A stretch of 64,000 nucleotides of DNA, taken from the NCBI GenBank assembly GCA_003216595.1, contig QCIQ01000001.1, positions 1 to 64,000 of the forward strand. Reading direction: 5' to 3'. Shown one piece after another: positions 17,592 through 22,774 of the stretch. Within the stretch, counting starts at the first letter, position 1. Each line of letters begins with the position of its first letter. The notes under the pieces are model-generated. The model saw only the letters and a program-made list of their open reading frames with translations, made no database searches and was not told the origin of the DNA. The DNA comes from Prochlorococcus sp. AG-402-M18 (GTDB lineage: Bacteria; Cyanobacteriota; Cyanobacteriia; PCC-6307; Cyanobiaceae). The position numbers and the translations under genes are program-made.

Positions 17592-18350
17592 ATGATAAAG
17601 TTGAGACCTTGGAATTATATCAAAATAAATGAATGTCATGAGCCTTTAATTTCTATTCCGAATTCCATATTTCGTTTAACACCTCATCCTTATATGTCGT
17701 TAGGTGCTCCATATTTAACCGGAGCAGATCCATGGGTTTTACGTAGAAGTGTGGTAAAGAGATTGATACGTGCACAACAATACCTTTCCAAGATTAATCC
17801 CCAATTACAGTTGGCTTTGTTTGATGCTTGGAGACCTATCTCTGTTCAAAAATTCATGTTTAATTACACTATTCAGCAAACTTGTAAGTCGAAGGGGATT
17901 GATATTAATGATCTTTCTGTCAATGAAAGCATCAATGATGTAATTGAGGAGGTTGGCCTTTTCTGGGCAAAACCATCTACTGATCCTCTTACGCCACCTC
18001 CGCACAGTACAGGTGCTGCTATTGATTTAACACTTGCTGATATGACTAGTAAACCATTAGATCTTGGTGGAGAAATAGATTTTATTGGACCTGAATCTAG
18101 TCCTGACTTTTATAAAAAAGACCATTTTAAAATTTCTGGTTCAAAACATCAGGTTTTTCAGGATAGAAGATCTCTTTTGTTTTCAGTTATGGAACAGGCT
18201 GGTTTTGTTCAACACCCACACGAATGGTGGCATTTTAGCTATGGAGATCAGTTATGGTCTTGGTTAACTAATAAAGGTGATGCTATTTATGGGGCTGCAC
18301 TTGAGGTAAGTAATGACATTACACTTTTAGAGCCAAGTTTAGTCACATGA
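17592..18350 (+). CDS. ddpX: D-alanyl-D-alanine dipeptidase, VanX/DdpX type (peptidase M15D)
   Basis: A zinc D,D-dipeptidase that hydrolyses D-Ala-D-Ala. The zinc ligands and catalytic base are clear: HSTGAAID (His138, Asp145) and HEWWH (Glu211 base, His214 ligand). FDAWRP near 78-82 carries the substrate Arg. The 252-residue length is normal and no signal peptide is seen, so it probably acts in the cytoplasm, recycling the dipeptide from peptidoglycan turnover. There is no vanH/A cluster. Its last 64 bases overlap the convergent sir gene. Confidence 0.9.
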   Translation: MIKLRPWNYIKINECHEPLISIPNSIFRLTPHPYMSLGAPYLTGADPWVLRRSVVKRLIRAQQYLSKINPQLQLALFDAWRPISVQKFMFNYTIQQTCKSKGIDINDLSVNESINDVIEEVGLFWAKPSTDPLTPPPHSTGAAIDLTLADMTSKPLDLGGEIDFIGPESSPDFYKKDHFKISGSKHQVFQDRRSLLFSVMEQAGFVQHPHEWWHFSYGDQLWSWLTNKGDAIYGAALEVSNDITLLEPSLVT

Positions 18351-20431
18351 TCTCCAAGACTAGATGAGCTCCCAGTATCTTTCCAGCTAAGGAATAAAGG
18401 CTCTAATGTCTTCTCTAATTCATTGATAGGCATTTTTTGTAGATATGGAGTAGCCAATCTTTGTAAATTAGTGCTACCACCAAGCCAAAGTTGGTATTGA
18501 TTTAGACCACTACCAACAAGAGCTAACTCTGCCATGTATGGGCGAGCACATCCGTTTGGACAGCCGGTAATTCTTACTAATATTGATTTTTTAATCTCTA
18601 GCTTTTTTAATTGATTTTTTATTCGTTCCAATAGCTCTGGTAAAAATCTCTCCGCTTCTGTCATTGCAAGTCCACATAATGGAAGAGCTGGACAAGCCAT
18701 TGCATGCCTGGCCAATGGTTTTGGGCTCTCTGGATCTGATAAACCTATATCGTCTAAAGCATTCTTAACACTCGCTTTTTGATAACTACCAATATTACAC
18801 AATAGTAAATCTTGGTTGGGAGTTAAACGTACATCCAATCCAAATTTTTCAACTATATTTCTGAGTCCTTTTTTTACTTCCCCCGTAAGCCTACCTGATA
18901 ATAGTGGTAGTCCAACAAACCATAGTTTCTTAGATTGTTGATGCCAGCCCAAATAATCTTCAAGTATTGCATTTCCTTCGTTCCTTAAGGGGCCGATTTG
19001 TTTCGTAAAATATTTCGTTGTTAACTTTTTCTTAAACCAATCGACACCCATGTCATGTAAAACATATTTAAGTCTTGAGTGTCTTCGAGTTTTTCTATCT
19101 CCATAATCTCTTTGAAGAGCAAGAATAGATTGAACAAGCTCTAAAATATATTTTCCTTCTACAAAGCCAATGGGATCTGCTATCCTCGCAAATGTCGTAT
19201 CTAAGTTGTGTGTTCTACCCATGCCTCCTCCTACATAGACATTACATCCTTCTAAAGTTCCTTTTCCATTCGTGAAAGTCACTAGGCCTATGTCATGAGT
19301 AAGAATATCAACTGAATTATCTCCTGGTACTGTAGTTGCACATTTGAATTTCCTTGGTAAGTAGGTTGCACCATATAAAGGTTCATTTTTGTCCCCACTA
19401 AAAATACCAGGATTTTTTTGACACTTTCTGTTCTTTTTGACTTCAGAGGTTGGCTTGATAGCATATTTCATCTCGCCATCAACCCATAAATCAATGTAGG
19501 TTTTCTCTGCTTTTTGGGGCGATAAAACATCGGCAATATCATTAGCTAATTTTCTTGCAGCAGGATATGAACCTTTTTCATAGGGGGCCGCTGGAGCCAT
19601 TACATTCCTGTTGACGTCTCCACAAGCAGCGAGGGTGGATCCCATTGACTTCACAATTGTTCCTATTACTTTTTTAATATTCTCTTTTTTTATTCCATGC
19701 ATTTGGAAGCATTGACGAGTAGTTACCCTAAGCGTTTTGTTCCCTAGTCGATCAGAGAGATCATCTAATGCTACAAATAATGGCCCTGGGACCAAACCAG
19801 CTGGATTTCTTAGCCTAAGCATCATTTGCCAATCTTTACCTATGCCGCCTCTTTTTCTATGTTCCCGATCATCTTGTTGATAACTACCATGGAATTTTAA
19901 AAGTTGTACTGCGTCGTTTGTAAAGTGATCGCTGTCGTTTAATAATTCGCTTTGTAGGGGTTCGTTTAAGTAATTACTATCAGCTTTAAATTGTTCAAAT
20001 TTCGATCTAGGGGAATTATTAGCTATGCATGGCGAAGGAACAGTCTTTTCTATTTCTTCAACATTTGTACTTCCATTTTCCTCGAAATTCATTAGAGCTT
20101 CAATAGCTGCATTACTGAATCCGGCATCTTTTAAGTCTTTTTCTATGTCTTTTGGAGATTCACTTGAATTTCTTTTTTTGATAGCCTCGAGTCTTATTCC
20201 TTTAGGTAAGGATTTGTTGATTTGTTTAGCCTCTTCTTCTCTAAGCTTTTCGTCGAATTTTTCTTGAATAGCTATTTCTGCTGAGTTTATGTTCTTTTCT
20301 GCTTCTTCTTTAGTATTACCTATCTTTTTTACTACATCACAGGTTCCAAAAGCATCCCTTAATTTACCCCTCGGAACTGCGACCCTGAGGTAAAACCCTG
20401 ATCTTCCTGGTATTTGTATGATCTTAGGCAA
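18287..20431 (-). CDS. sir: Ferredoxin-sulfite reductase with an unusual integrase-like N-terminal extension
   Basis: Residues from about 143 (SKFEQFKADSNYL) to near the end form an ordinary assimilatory sulfite reductase. It reduces sulfite to sulfide with ferredoxin, siroheme and a 4Fe-4S cluster; cluster cysteines are in CPALPLC and GCPNGC. The first ~140 residues are foreign to the family. IPGRSGFYLRVAVPRGKLRD, then FGTCDVVKKIGNTKEEAEK, resembles the N-terminal region of phage-type tyrosine recombinases (DUF6538 style), followed by a Lys/Glu-rich helical linker. The TTG start at 20431 is preceded by an in-frame TAG three codons upstream. An internal ATG at 20092 (Met114) would give a near-normal enzyme. 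Confidence 0.93.
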   Translation of the reverse strand: MPKIIQIPGRSGFYLRVAVPRGKLRDAFGTCDVVKKIGNTKEEAEKNINSAEIAIQEKFDEKLREEEAKQINKSLPKGIRLEAIKKRNSSESPKDIEKDLKDAGFSNAAIEALMNFEENGSTNVEEIEKTVPSPCIANNSPRSKFEQFKADSNYLNEPLQSELLNDSDHFTNDAVQLLKFHGSYQQDDREHRKRGGIGKDWQMMLRLRNPAGLVPGPLFVALDDLSDRLGNKTLRVTTRQCFQMHGIKKENIKKVIGTIVKSMGSTLAACGDVNRNVMAPAAPYEKGSYPAARKLANDIADVLSPQKAEKTYIDLWVDGEMKYAIKPTSEVKKNRKCQKNPGIFSGDKNEPLYGATYLPRKFKCATTVPGDNSVDILTHDIGLVTFTNGKGTLEGCNVYVGGGMGRTHNLDTTFARIADPIGFVEGKYILELVQSILALQRDYGDRKTRRHSRLKYVLHDMGVDWFKKKLTTKYFTKQIGPLRNEGNAILEDYLGWHQQSKKLWFVGLPLLSGRLTGEVKKGLRNIVEKFGLDVRLTPNQDLLLCNIGSYQKASVKNALDDIGLSDPESPKPLARHAMACPALPLCGLAMTEAERFLPELLERIKNQLKKLEIKKSILVRITGCPNGCARPYMAELALVGSGLNQYQLWLGGSTNLQRLATPYLQKMPINELEKTLEPLFLSWKDTGSSSSLGDHVTKLGSKSVMSLLTSSAAP

Positions 20432-20433
20432 TG

Positions 20434-20456
20434 GTACCTACACCGGTACCTACACT
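20434..20456 (+). repeat. Tandem direct repeat immediately upstream of the sir start
   Basis: GGTACCTACAC occurs twice, at 20434-20444 and 20446-20456, separated by one C. Each copy begins with the palindrome GGTACC. On the minus strand the copies read GTGTAGGTACC and end 2 bases before the TTG of sir. They contain in-frame TAG codons. Nothing similar was noticed elsewhere in the window. They could be an operator or a relic of whatever supplied the sir extension. Confidence 0.75.
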
Positions 20457-20611
20457 GTATCATTTTTCTTGTTGGTTGGTGCCTAATTGTTCGAATAAAA
20501 CCATGAGTGAACAAATATCCATTTATTCAATATTAAATTTTTTCTAGGACACAGAATGTAGAAGTAATTCACATTTAGTTCTAATCTTGTTAAGAACATA
20601 AGGAAATTTTT

Positions 20612-22774
20612 TTGTCTACTTACCTTTTAGAAATCGGTACTGAGGAACTTCCAGCTGATTTGGCTGAATCTGTTATTTCCCAGCTTGAGTTAAATGTAAG
20701 TAACGACTTGAATTCTTCACAAATAAAATTTAGTGAAATAAGAGTTACTACTACTCCTAGAAGAATTGCATTAACTATTCAAGGGATTGCTCCATATTCT
20801 GAAGATAATATTTCAGAACTAAAAGGTCCTTCTGTTTCTCAAGCGTTTCATGATGGAGAACCTACTAAAGCAGCAATTGGTTTTGCTAGAAGATATGACC
20901 TTTCTCCTGAAAAATTAGAGGTTCGAGAAACGCCAAAGGGTTCATTTGTTTTCGCTAAATTAATCGAGAAAGGCAAGCCCGCTGAAACTTTGTTGGCTGA
21001 TTATGTACCTGGATGGATCAACAAAATTCAAGGAAGAAGGTTTATGAGATGGGGCAAAGGTGATTTTCGCTTTTCGAGACCTATTCGTTGGATTGTTTCT
21101 TTGCTTGATTCAGAAGTCTTACCTTTTAGTATTTCAGGGTGCGATCCAGAAATTCAAATTGGTAATATCTCAAAAACTCATAGGTTACATGGCTCAACAT
21201 TAGAAATAAAGAATGCAAAAACTTATTTTGATCAATTGCGGGATGTCGGAGTAATAGTTGACAGGAGTAGACGCCTTTTAAATATCAAAGATTTAGTTCT
21301 TAATCACGAGAAAAATAAAAAAGTTAAGCCTGATTTGACTGAACCCCTTCTAAACGAGCTGACCGATTTAGTTGAGTTCCCTTTACTTGTGACTGGGAGT
21401 TTTGATGAATCTTTCCTAGATTTACCCCCTGAGGTTTTGTCCACTGTGATGAAGGTTCATCAAAGGTACATACCTTTATACAAAGCAAATGTTGAGATTG
21501 ATTCATTATCACTTGACTCAAAAAATATTTTACTTCCTAGTTTTTTATGTATTAGTAATGGATTATCTTCTGCAAAAGAAAATATCATTCTAGGTAATGA
21601 AAAAGTATTAAAGGCAAGGTTTTCTGATGCTGCATTTTTTATAAAGTCAGATTTGTTAATCAATAGCTCTTCACGTATTAATAAATTAAAAGATGTAACC
21701 TTTACTGAAGGATTAGGTTCTTTATATGATCGTGTAAATCGGATTGAATGGCTTGCTAAATTAGTTACATCAAAACTTAAATTTGATCAAGAGGATATTG
21801 AGAAATCTATAAAAGTTGCGCATTTTTCTAAACATGATTTAGTTAGCAACATGGTCGGTGAGTTCCCAGAATTACAAGGAACTATTGGATCTAAATACTT
21901 GCTTCATGAGGGTGAGCCCAGAGATGTATGCCTTGGTGTTTTAGAACATTACAAACCTAAAGGAACTGCAGATGCTCTTCCCTCAAACAAACTTGGCAAT
22001 GCGGTCTCATTAGCTGAACGTTTTGAATTACTTTTCAGTATTTTTGCTAAGGGCGAAAGACCTTCTGGCTCATCTGATCCATATGCTTTGAGAAGAGCTG
22101 CTAATGGAATATTGTTGATTTTATGGAATAAAGATTGGCAATTAAATATCAATGAAATACAAAATGATTCATTAATTTTTTGGCAGCAACTTTTCCCTTC
22201 TCTCTCTTTTGAAATAAGCAGTCTTTCTAATGATTTAAAGGAATTTTTTCGTCAAAGAATTATTAGTTTACTAGAAGAGGAAGATATCGAATTTGATATT
22301 ATTCAAGCAATTGCAGGAGATACAACTTCAACATCAAAATTATTAGATGATCCAACTGACGTTTATTTTCGTACTTCATTATTAATGGAAATGAGGAAAA
22401 ATAATACACTTACTTTGTTGCAAGCTGTAGTGACTAGAGCCTCTAAGTTGGCAGCTAAAAGTTCTATCCCAAAAGATGTTATAGACCCTTCATGTTTTGT
22501 AGACAAATCAATATTTGAGAAGGATTGTGAAATCGAAATGTTTAATGTTTTGGAGAAATTAAAACCTCTAGCTATAAATGGTGACCGTGTTAAATATAAA
22601 TTATTAGCTGATGGTCTAGTCTCAAGTGCTGAGACTCTAGCTAACTTTTTCGATGGAGAAGGAAGTGTTATGGTTATGACAGATGATATTAATCTAAGAA
22701 ATAACAGACTAAACTTGCTGACAATATTTAGAAATCAGTCCTTGAAGCTTGCCGATTTCAGCAAACTTAATTAA
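20612..22774 (+). CDS. glyS: Glycyl-tRNA synthetase beta subunit
   Basis: The beta chain of the bacterial alpha2beta2 enzyme. The start YLLEIGTEELPADL is diagnostic. Next come TTPRRIA, GPSVSQAF and FMRWGKGDFRFSRPIRWIVSLL. An HD-like segment KVAHFSKHDLVSNMVGEFPELQG is present, as is the SDPYALRRAANG motif near 490. The 720-residue length is normal. Start TTG at 20612 has AAGGA about 8 bases upstream. The alpha gene glyQ is not in the window, as is usual when the subunits are unlinked. It is divergent from sir and convergent with chlP. Confidence 0.97.
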   Translation: MSTYLLEIGTEELPADLAESVISQLELNVSNDLNSSQIKFSEIRVTTTPRRIALTIQGIAPYSEDNISELKGPSVSQAFHDGEPTKAAIGFARRYDLSPEKLEVRETPKGSFVFAKLIEKGKPAETLLADYVPGWINKIQGRRFMRWGKGDFRFSRPIRWIVSLLDSEVLPFSISGCDPEIQIGNISKTHRLHGSTLEIKNAKTYFDQLRDVGVIVDRSRRLLNIKDLVLNHEKNKKVKPDLTEPLLNELTDLVEFPLLVTGSFDESFLDLPPEVLSTVMKVHQRYIPLYKANVEIDSLSLDSKNILLPSFLCISNGLSSAKENIILGNEKVLKARFSDAAFFIKSDLLINSSSRINKLKDVTFTEGLGSLYDRVNRIEWLAKLVTSKLKFDQEDIEKSIKVAHFSKHDLVSNMVGEFPELQGTIGSKYLLHEGEPRDVCLGVLEHYKPKGTADALPSNKLGNAVSLAERFELLFSIFAKGERPSGSSDPYALRRAANGILLILWNKDWQLNINEIQNDSLIFWQQLFPSLSFEISSLSNDLKEFFRQRIISLLEEEDIEFDIIQAIAGDTTSTSKLLDDPTDVYFRTSLLMEMRKNNTLTLLQAVVTRASKLAAKSSIPKDVIDPSCFVDKSIFEKDCEIEMFNVLEKLKPLAINGDRVKYKLLADGLVSSAETLANFFDGEGSVMVMTDDINLRNNRLNLLTIFRNQSLKLADFSKLN

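Follow-up and report, generated by a model that had tools for sequence, protein, structure and literature searches.

A putative DNA-binding domain from a tyrosine integrase, joined to the sulfite reductase of Prochlorococcus together with its candidate operator

The metabolic enzyme PutA acts on its own regulon through a DNA-binding domain at its N-terminus, and such a domain has been engineered onto a bifunctional PutA, as described in the accessible part of the report (PMC5293562). The sulfite reductase (Sir) of Prochlorococcus sp. AG-402-M18 appears to resemble PutA in combining an enzyme with an N-terminal putative DNA-binding domain (the head) and a candidate operator at its own gene, whereas it differs in that the head comes from a tyrosine integrase, arrived with tandem repeats, and is located on a sulfite reductase; its regulation is one that we infer. 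Arm-binding domains of tyrosine recombinases consist of three strands and one long helix, according to the available portion of the source (PMC8138268). In keeping with arm-binding and DUF6538 domains, the Sir head is homologous to DUF6538-matching integrase N-termini and is predicted to form three strands and a long helix; unlike them, it is fused to an enzyme, is without a core-binding or catalytic domain, and has no DUF6538 match of its own. Relative to the aligned integrases, one residue is inserted (in VPRGKLR), and there is an additional short helix. The plastid sulfite reductase DCP68 also binds DNA, but the action described in the accessible text is DNA compaction rather than control of one site, and that text does not mention an integrase-type head (PMC4154389). 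Tyrosine integrases with an unusual domain layout are found in Prochlorococcus and Synechococcus; they are picocyanobacterial, as are the relatives of the Sir head, and the two are likened here by description, the part of the article available containing no mention of a fusion to an enzyme (PMC10187409). In a literature search that covered mostly journals readable without subscription, no report of a Sir-integrase head fusion was found, and the same search yielded nothing on DUF6538, on integrase arm-type autoregulation, or on a Rieske-integrase fusion in Prochlorococcus.

The window, i.e., the whole 64,000-nucleotide stretch of DNA that was analyzed, contains the following features at the sir locus.

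18287..20431, minus strand: fused sir coding sequence, 714 aa, with a TTG start at 20431.
20237..20431, minus strand: integrase-type N-terminal domain (residues 1-65), DUF6538-like by its relatives and with a predicted arm-binding-like fold; assigned by homology, with a pN/pS of 0.078.
20078..20236, minus strand: remainder of the putative integrase-derived stretch (residues 66-118); assigned by alignment with integrases, with a pN/pS of 0.102 for residues 93-117.
20036..20077, minus strand: variable junction (residues 119-132); assigned by alignment and by comparison with the fusion in genome G358.
18287..20035, minus strand: sulfite reductase of the ferredoxin type, starting with SPCIAN and including the stop codon; assigned by domain models.
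20445..20454, minus strand: tandem repeat copy 1, TGTAGGTACC.
20433..20442, minus strand: tandem repeat copy 2, TGTAGGTACC, one base ahead of the TTG start.
20453..20455, minus strand: GTG apparently matching, by eye, the start codon of unfused sir genes, with TAG directly after it.
20456..20468, minus strand: leader GAAAAATGATACA, resembling GAAAAATGACGCC ahead of the GTG in the unfused locus L108.
20612..22774, plus strand: glyS (named by its sequence), the divergent neighbor of sir, in the same arrangement as at unfused sir loci.

The Sir open reading frame (ORF) scored above the cut-off of the ferredoxin-Sir model TIGR02042 (736.3 bits versus 731.5), which assigns it as a ferredoxin-dependent sulfite reductase. 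The match to this model starts only at residue 139 and that to NF010029 at residue 135, and approximately 132 residues precede the conserved SPCIAN...KFEQFK start, which bears out the extra N-terminal residues that the initial annotation had noticed. Unfused Sirs have approximately 16-17 residues between the GTG and the SPCIAN-like motif (eight loci of other genera, L108-L115), a figure that presumes that they start at the GTG picked by eye; if these starts hold, the net gain of the fused Sir would be about 115 residues. After the head, there is no core-binding or catalytic recombinase domain, and Sir domains alone follow.

When searched alone, the extension had no convincing match in Pfam (best E 0.013) or PHROGs (best E 0.034) and none at all in NCBIfam. 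A protein search against 299 genomes of the order revealed 15 best places outside the sir genes of the window's own genus (E 3e-11 to 1.2e-6 per genome), comprising 11 ORFs of 424-453 aa and four shorter ORFs; one of the long ORFs is a fusion to a Rieske oxygenase, and the rest are integrases, identified by Pfam or by close head identity to a scanned one. Apart from Sir and Rieske, the head occurs at 28 loci that are non-redundant at 75% head identity; one representative of each was scanned, and Phage_integrase (Pfam, E<=0.01) was detected in 22. Those without it were L036, L045, L052, L057, and L099, with ORFs of 69-186 aa, and L100, a 435-aa head-bearing ORF with a weak SAM-like match alone. 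The ORFs of L099 (in genome G155), L036 (G287), and L048 (G085) are shortened to 71, 111, and 177 residues, and these are heads without the catalytic part of an integrase. R10, G12, P20, and K36 are invariant in the head alignment (23 rows), and the integrase nearest to the window's head among those compared is that of locus L037 (46% identity). The homology to the closest integrases extends to a helix at residues 93-113 (8-row alignment), and the Sir helix at residues 93-117 aligns with the integrase helix LEQRLK..G, reading IEKDLKDAGF in Sir versus LEQRLKSVGL and LEQRLKKAGF in integrases. Sequence comparison has confirmed that Sir residues 1-65, and more weakly those to approximately 118, share homology with the N-terminal half of the tyrosine recombinases found in other picocyanobacteria, and most of the integrase part preceding the core-binding domain seems to be present in the extension.

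The homology to integrases thus supports the proposal of the initial annotation that the extension is the N-terminal half of a recombinase, and the integrase alignment upholds its inclusion of the helical stretch to approximately residue 115 in that half. Its label "DUF6538-type" is right for the relatives, since 19 of the 23 alignment members match DUF6538 (PF20172) at E<=10 (best 6e-7), and does not hold for the window's own sequence, with which the Pfam model is not reached: the extension has no match at E<=10, and the whole genome searched with that model has none either. When the DUF6538 model was run over 20 genomes, the genome of the window had no match, no genome had one above the cut-off, and weak matches also appeared in 9 of 14 control genomes. 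Similarly, "phage tyrosine recombinase" is correct in its second part and not in its first, the relatives being integrases in picocyanobacterial genomes. A phage origin of the head was rejected: tblastn against 50,697 phage records returned seven Sulfolobus virus (archaeal rudivirus) records with a best E of 0.2, and four integrase queries against viral contigs found no relative.

A model of residues 1-70 has three strands and two helices, one short and one long (b-b-a-b-a), with a pLDDT of 89.3; the model of the whole extension has a pLDDT of 64.7. The predicted fold of the head is consistent with an arm-binding domain of three strands and one helix, to which a short helix is added. A Foldseek search of the head against PDB gave nothing significant, the best matches (E 2.2 and 1.0) including no integrase, and a sequence-profile search against solved structures gave a best E of 3.7. 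Among the best 50 of 120 Foldseek viral matches, three are named integrases, all of them weak.

The pN/pS ratios, calculated from 23 unique coding sequences of the own genus, are 0.078 for residues 2-65, 0.268 for residues 66-132 (0.102 for the helix at 93-117 within this stretch), 0.050 for residues 133-200, and 0.124 for the remaining Sir, with mean dS values of 0.57-0.79 by region. Purifying selection is thus stronger on the head domain than on the body of Sir (0.078 versus 0.124). Residue 1 is encoded by TTG or GTG in 31/31 loci. Since the copies within the genus share 75-93% identity with the window's extension, the pN/pS of residues 2-65 is as low as 0.078, and the start codon is kept in all 31 loci, the extension is not a product of chance. 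The initial annotation had raised the possibility that the domain is bypassed by a start at Met114 (20092), so that Sir would begin there or later and the upstream part would be an untranslated leftover. An ATG is found at codon 114 in 26 of 31 loci, as such a start would require, but the alignment has Leu in three loci, Ile in one, and Phe in one, the five without Met including G358, and neither the conserved start codon at residue 1 nor the strong constraint on residues 2-65 agrees with an untranslated head; this explanation is extremely unlikely.

Sir was detected (E<=1e-100) in 362 of 400 genomes of the family. Within the own genus, it is present in 30 of 41 genomes, and all 30 carry the extension, 29 in one frame and one (G028) split across two contigs; the other 11 genomes, which are 50-88% complete assemblies without a Sir match, are also without the extension. 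Outside the genus, the head profile revealed one further Sir fusion among the 400 family genomes, that of G358, and it is this search on which the absence of the head from the Sirs of other genera rests. The comparison with other strains thus places the extension on every Sir found in the genus and, elsewhere in the family, on that of G358 alone. The G358 protein retains 62% identity in the domain and 32% in residues 66-132. The fused Sirs form one clade in the Sir tree with support of 94/95 (17 rows, nine fused and eight plain), and the Sir heads form one clade in the head tree with support of 94/96 (four of 33 rows). Judged from these comparisons and from the substitution pattern, the fusion is real, fixed, and selected.

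At nine of the ten loci examined, which include both fused and unfused ones, sir and glyS are divergent, the motif not being found in the tenth. By eye, the fused leader with its GTG (GAAAAATGATACA-GTG) agrees with that of the unfused locus L108 (GAAAAATGACGCC-GTG) at 13 of 16 positions. As this likeness ends in a GTG that is followed by TAG and the repeats, the insert appears, as read by eye, to start from the former sir start codon. A past insertion that left its 5′ end fused in frame, as the initial annotation had suggested, is supported, with its position now at the sir start and the glyS-sir locus otherwise kept.

Directly ahead of the sir start are two perfect tandem repeats, TGTAGGTACC-NN-TGTAGGTACC, which in the window read TGTAGGTACC GG TGTAGGTACC A followed by TTG. 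In the genome of the window, the pair was found once with up to three mismatches, at sir, and a reversed control pattern was found twice. In the 41 genomes of the genus, allowing a single mismatch yields 30 sites, one per Sir-bearing genome and all adjoining sir; with up to three mismatches, there are 38 real sites versus 52 for the reversed control, counted over all mismatch classes together, so only the close sites are meaningful. The eight sites away from sir, each with three mismatches, are at chance level by this control, and a regulon of further sites was accordingly rejected. Across the 30 loci, the repeat copies have 2 changes in 600 cells and the 2-base spacer has 9 in 60. The G358 fusion contains a perfect pair of its own, TGTTGGTACCA, and the integrase at L037 has the units TTGTAGGTACAG and TTGTAGATACAG, near the Sir unit. 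The sequence AATGATA just upstream of the repeats (in the region of window positions 20456-20468) is identical in 30/30 loci of the genus and may belong to a promoter or a leader. A sigma-70-type promoter for sir was sought, and none was found.

The initial annotation, which suggested that the domain may now be a regulator, had missed the tandem repeats, and their presence makes that idea stronger. The reading that we prefer is that a DNA-binding head was captured with its own operator, which would make Sir a candidate self-regulating enzyme; on the sequence evidence assembled here, this is probably the case. The 5′ end of an integrase gene of a picocyanobacterial mobile element, together with its two pre-start tandem repeats, would have joined sir at its former start codon, probably in a single event in the common ancestor of the own genus and the genus of G358, as the comparison of the fusions supports, and the rest of the integrase would have been lost. 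The head would be translated as part of Sir and, as its substitution pattern supports, kept by selection. Most likely, the tandem repeats, of which no other close copy was found in the genome, are still bound by the head, and the Sir protein would thereby limit the transcription of sir or the initiation of its translation, in the way that PutA acts on put. More speculatively, binding may be tuned by the state of the enzyme, i.e., by its substrate, siroheme, or Fe-S content. Prochlorococcus is an ocean cyanobacterium, very abundant and known for its few regulators. If the proposal is true, this locus would clearly exemplify how a DNA-binding domain of a mobile element was domesticated with its binding site and came to control a central metabolic enzyme.

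Sir might instead be a general or nucleoid-associated DNA binder, as the plastid sulfite reductase is, with no regulation of its own gene. DCP68 compacts the DNA to which it binds and reduces transcription, as far as the accessible text describes (PMC4154389), and DNA binding is also a property of the N-terminal domains of these recombinases, according to the portion available (PMC8138268); a conserved private site directly ahead of the start, on the other hand, suggests one specific target, and the general role is unlikely. Strong constraint on the domain would equally be expected if the head were kept for protein reasons, such as folding, oligomerization, or docking of ferredoxin or partners, with the repeats as a relic. 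The repeats, however, are not Sir codons in 24 of 30 loci of the genus, yet their copies vary less than the spacer, and a relic should have decayed over the observed divergence (mean dS as given above); we consider this explanation quite unlikely. The 24 loci are those with a stop in frame with Sir inside or just ahead of the repeats. In five of the 30 (L021, L024, L025, L027, and L063), the leader has an ATG in the Sir frame, placed there by an extra T ahead of the start codon, and in these loci an 11-residue longer product, MIQCRYRCRYH-Sir, translated through the repeats, is possible. L026 and G358 also have an open frame across the repeats, without an ATG.

Repeats ahead of the start are also found at many of the related integrase loci. 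Of 47 loci given, L091-L094 were below the domain cut-off and another 11 were removed as redundant, and the 32 retained comprise two Sir, two Rieske, and 28 others; for each, the 45 bases ahead of the domain were scored for tandem self-similarity at periods of 10-14 against 1000 dinucleotide shuffles. A repeat was detected in 16 of the 32 loci at p<0.01 and in 18 at p<0.05 (Fisher 1.8e-23), and none at p<0.05 in the other 14; in the 28 loci that are neither Sir nor Rieske, there were 13 at p<0.01. In the control regions, the count was 1 of 31 (bases -150 to -106) and 2 of 32 (bases +61 to +105), and as the tested region and periods were picked after repeats had been seen in the same loci, these controls weigh more than the combined p. 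In the 8-kb locus L031, the repeat unit, allowing up to one mismatch, is found only as the pair ahead of int. The repeat unit varies among lineages, and its two copies remain alike. Similarity of units tracks identity of domains among 16 loci selected for a repeat score of at least 8 (Pearson 0.53, p=0.0004; Spearman 0.47, p=0.005) and among the 13 left when Sir and Rieske loci are set aside (Pearson 0.51, p=0.0008), a correlation that could reflect shared descent of neighboring DNA. As the domain adjoins a candidate binding site in many of the loci examined, these loci offer a ready test of the function of DUF6538-type domains.

The repeats could alternatively act as an RNA hairpin, in which GGUACC pairs with GGUACC, that controls translation, the role of the protein head being unrelated. 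Both Sir leaders can fold in this manner (z -1.17 in the window and -2.57 in G358), but the mean z over the 17 loci tested is -0.25, which indicates no general trait and led us to reject the hairpin as a general explanation; it would also leave unexplained why the repeats accompany this protein domain, and we regard it as very unlikely for Sir.

Beyond Sir, the head is found ahead of a Rieske oxygenase (PF00355 and PF00848) in genomes G183 and G231, both of a third genus, in the layout seen at sir, at the following places.

L041:811-2133, in G183: Rieske fusion, with a tandem or near-tandem repeat ahead of its start.
L050:1089-2402, in G231: Rieske fusion, with a tandem or near-tandem repeat ahead of its start.

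Rieske fusions were found in these two of 266 genomes of that genus, 11 others having an integrase or broken copies. The two heads share 45% and 34% identity with that of the window, and one fusion has a perfect repeat pair (p=0.001) and the other the near-pair TGGTCATACCAT TGGTTAAACCAT (p=0.17). The G183 protein is matched in 159 of 200 genomes of its genus; among the matches listed, the best, itself aside, are mostly 341-residue ORFs aligning from approximately residue 99, and the next are 441-residue ORFs of 27-30% identity aligning from approximately residue 56-68. The Rieske heads form a clade of their own (99/99), to which the tree gives no firm placement relative to the Sir heads. From these sequences, the Rieske capture is likely independent of the Sir capture. 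A broader proposal is that the head and tandem operator constitute a portable self-control cassette, left by mobile elements before metabolic genes and kept as an autorepressor, with Sir as a fixed case, the Rieske oxygenase as a second capture, and operator and head co-evolving as a matched pair; this extension of the capture reading is conceivable, though somewhat doubtful.

Several minor observations concern the DNA around the related loci. No tRNA genes were found in the 11 loci scanned or in the window. L031, L036, L038, L042, L054, L095, and L118 have in common, approximately 80-110 bases ahead of their starts, a stretch whose core is TCGACCTG (often TCGACCTGgAAAArCCA); it was not seen in the 110 bases ahead of sir and is possibly the end of an upstream gene. 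The four loci below the domain cut-off (L091-L094) contain distant DUF6538-like long ORFs with a weak head match, and by eye, outside the statistical test, repeats with a period of approximately 12 bases are present upstream of them, for example, TTGGTACA twice and GTACCTCA three times.
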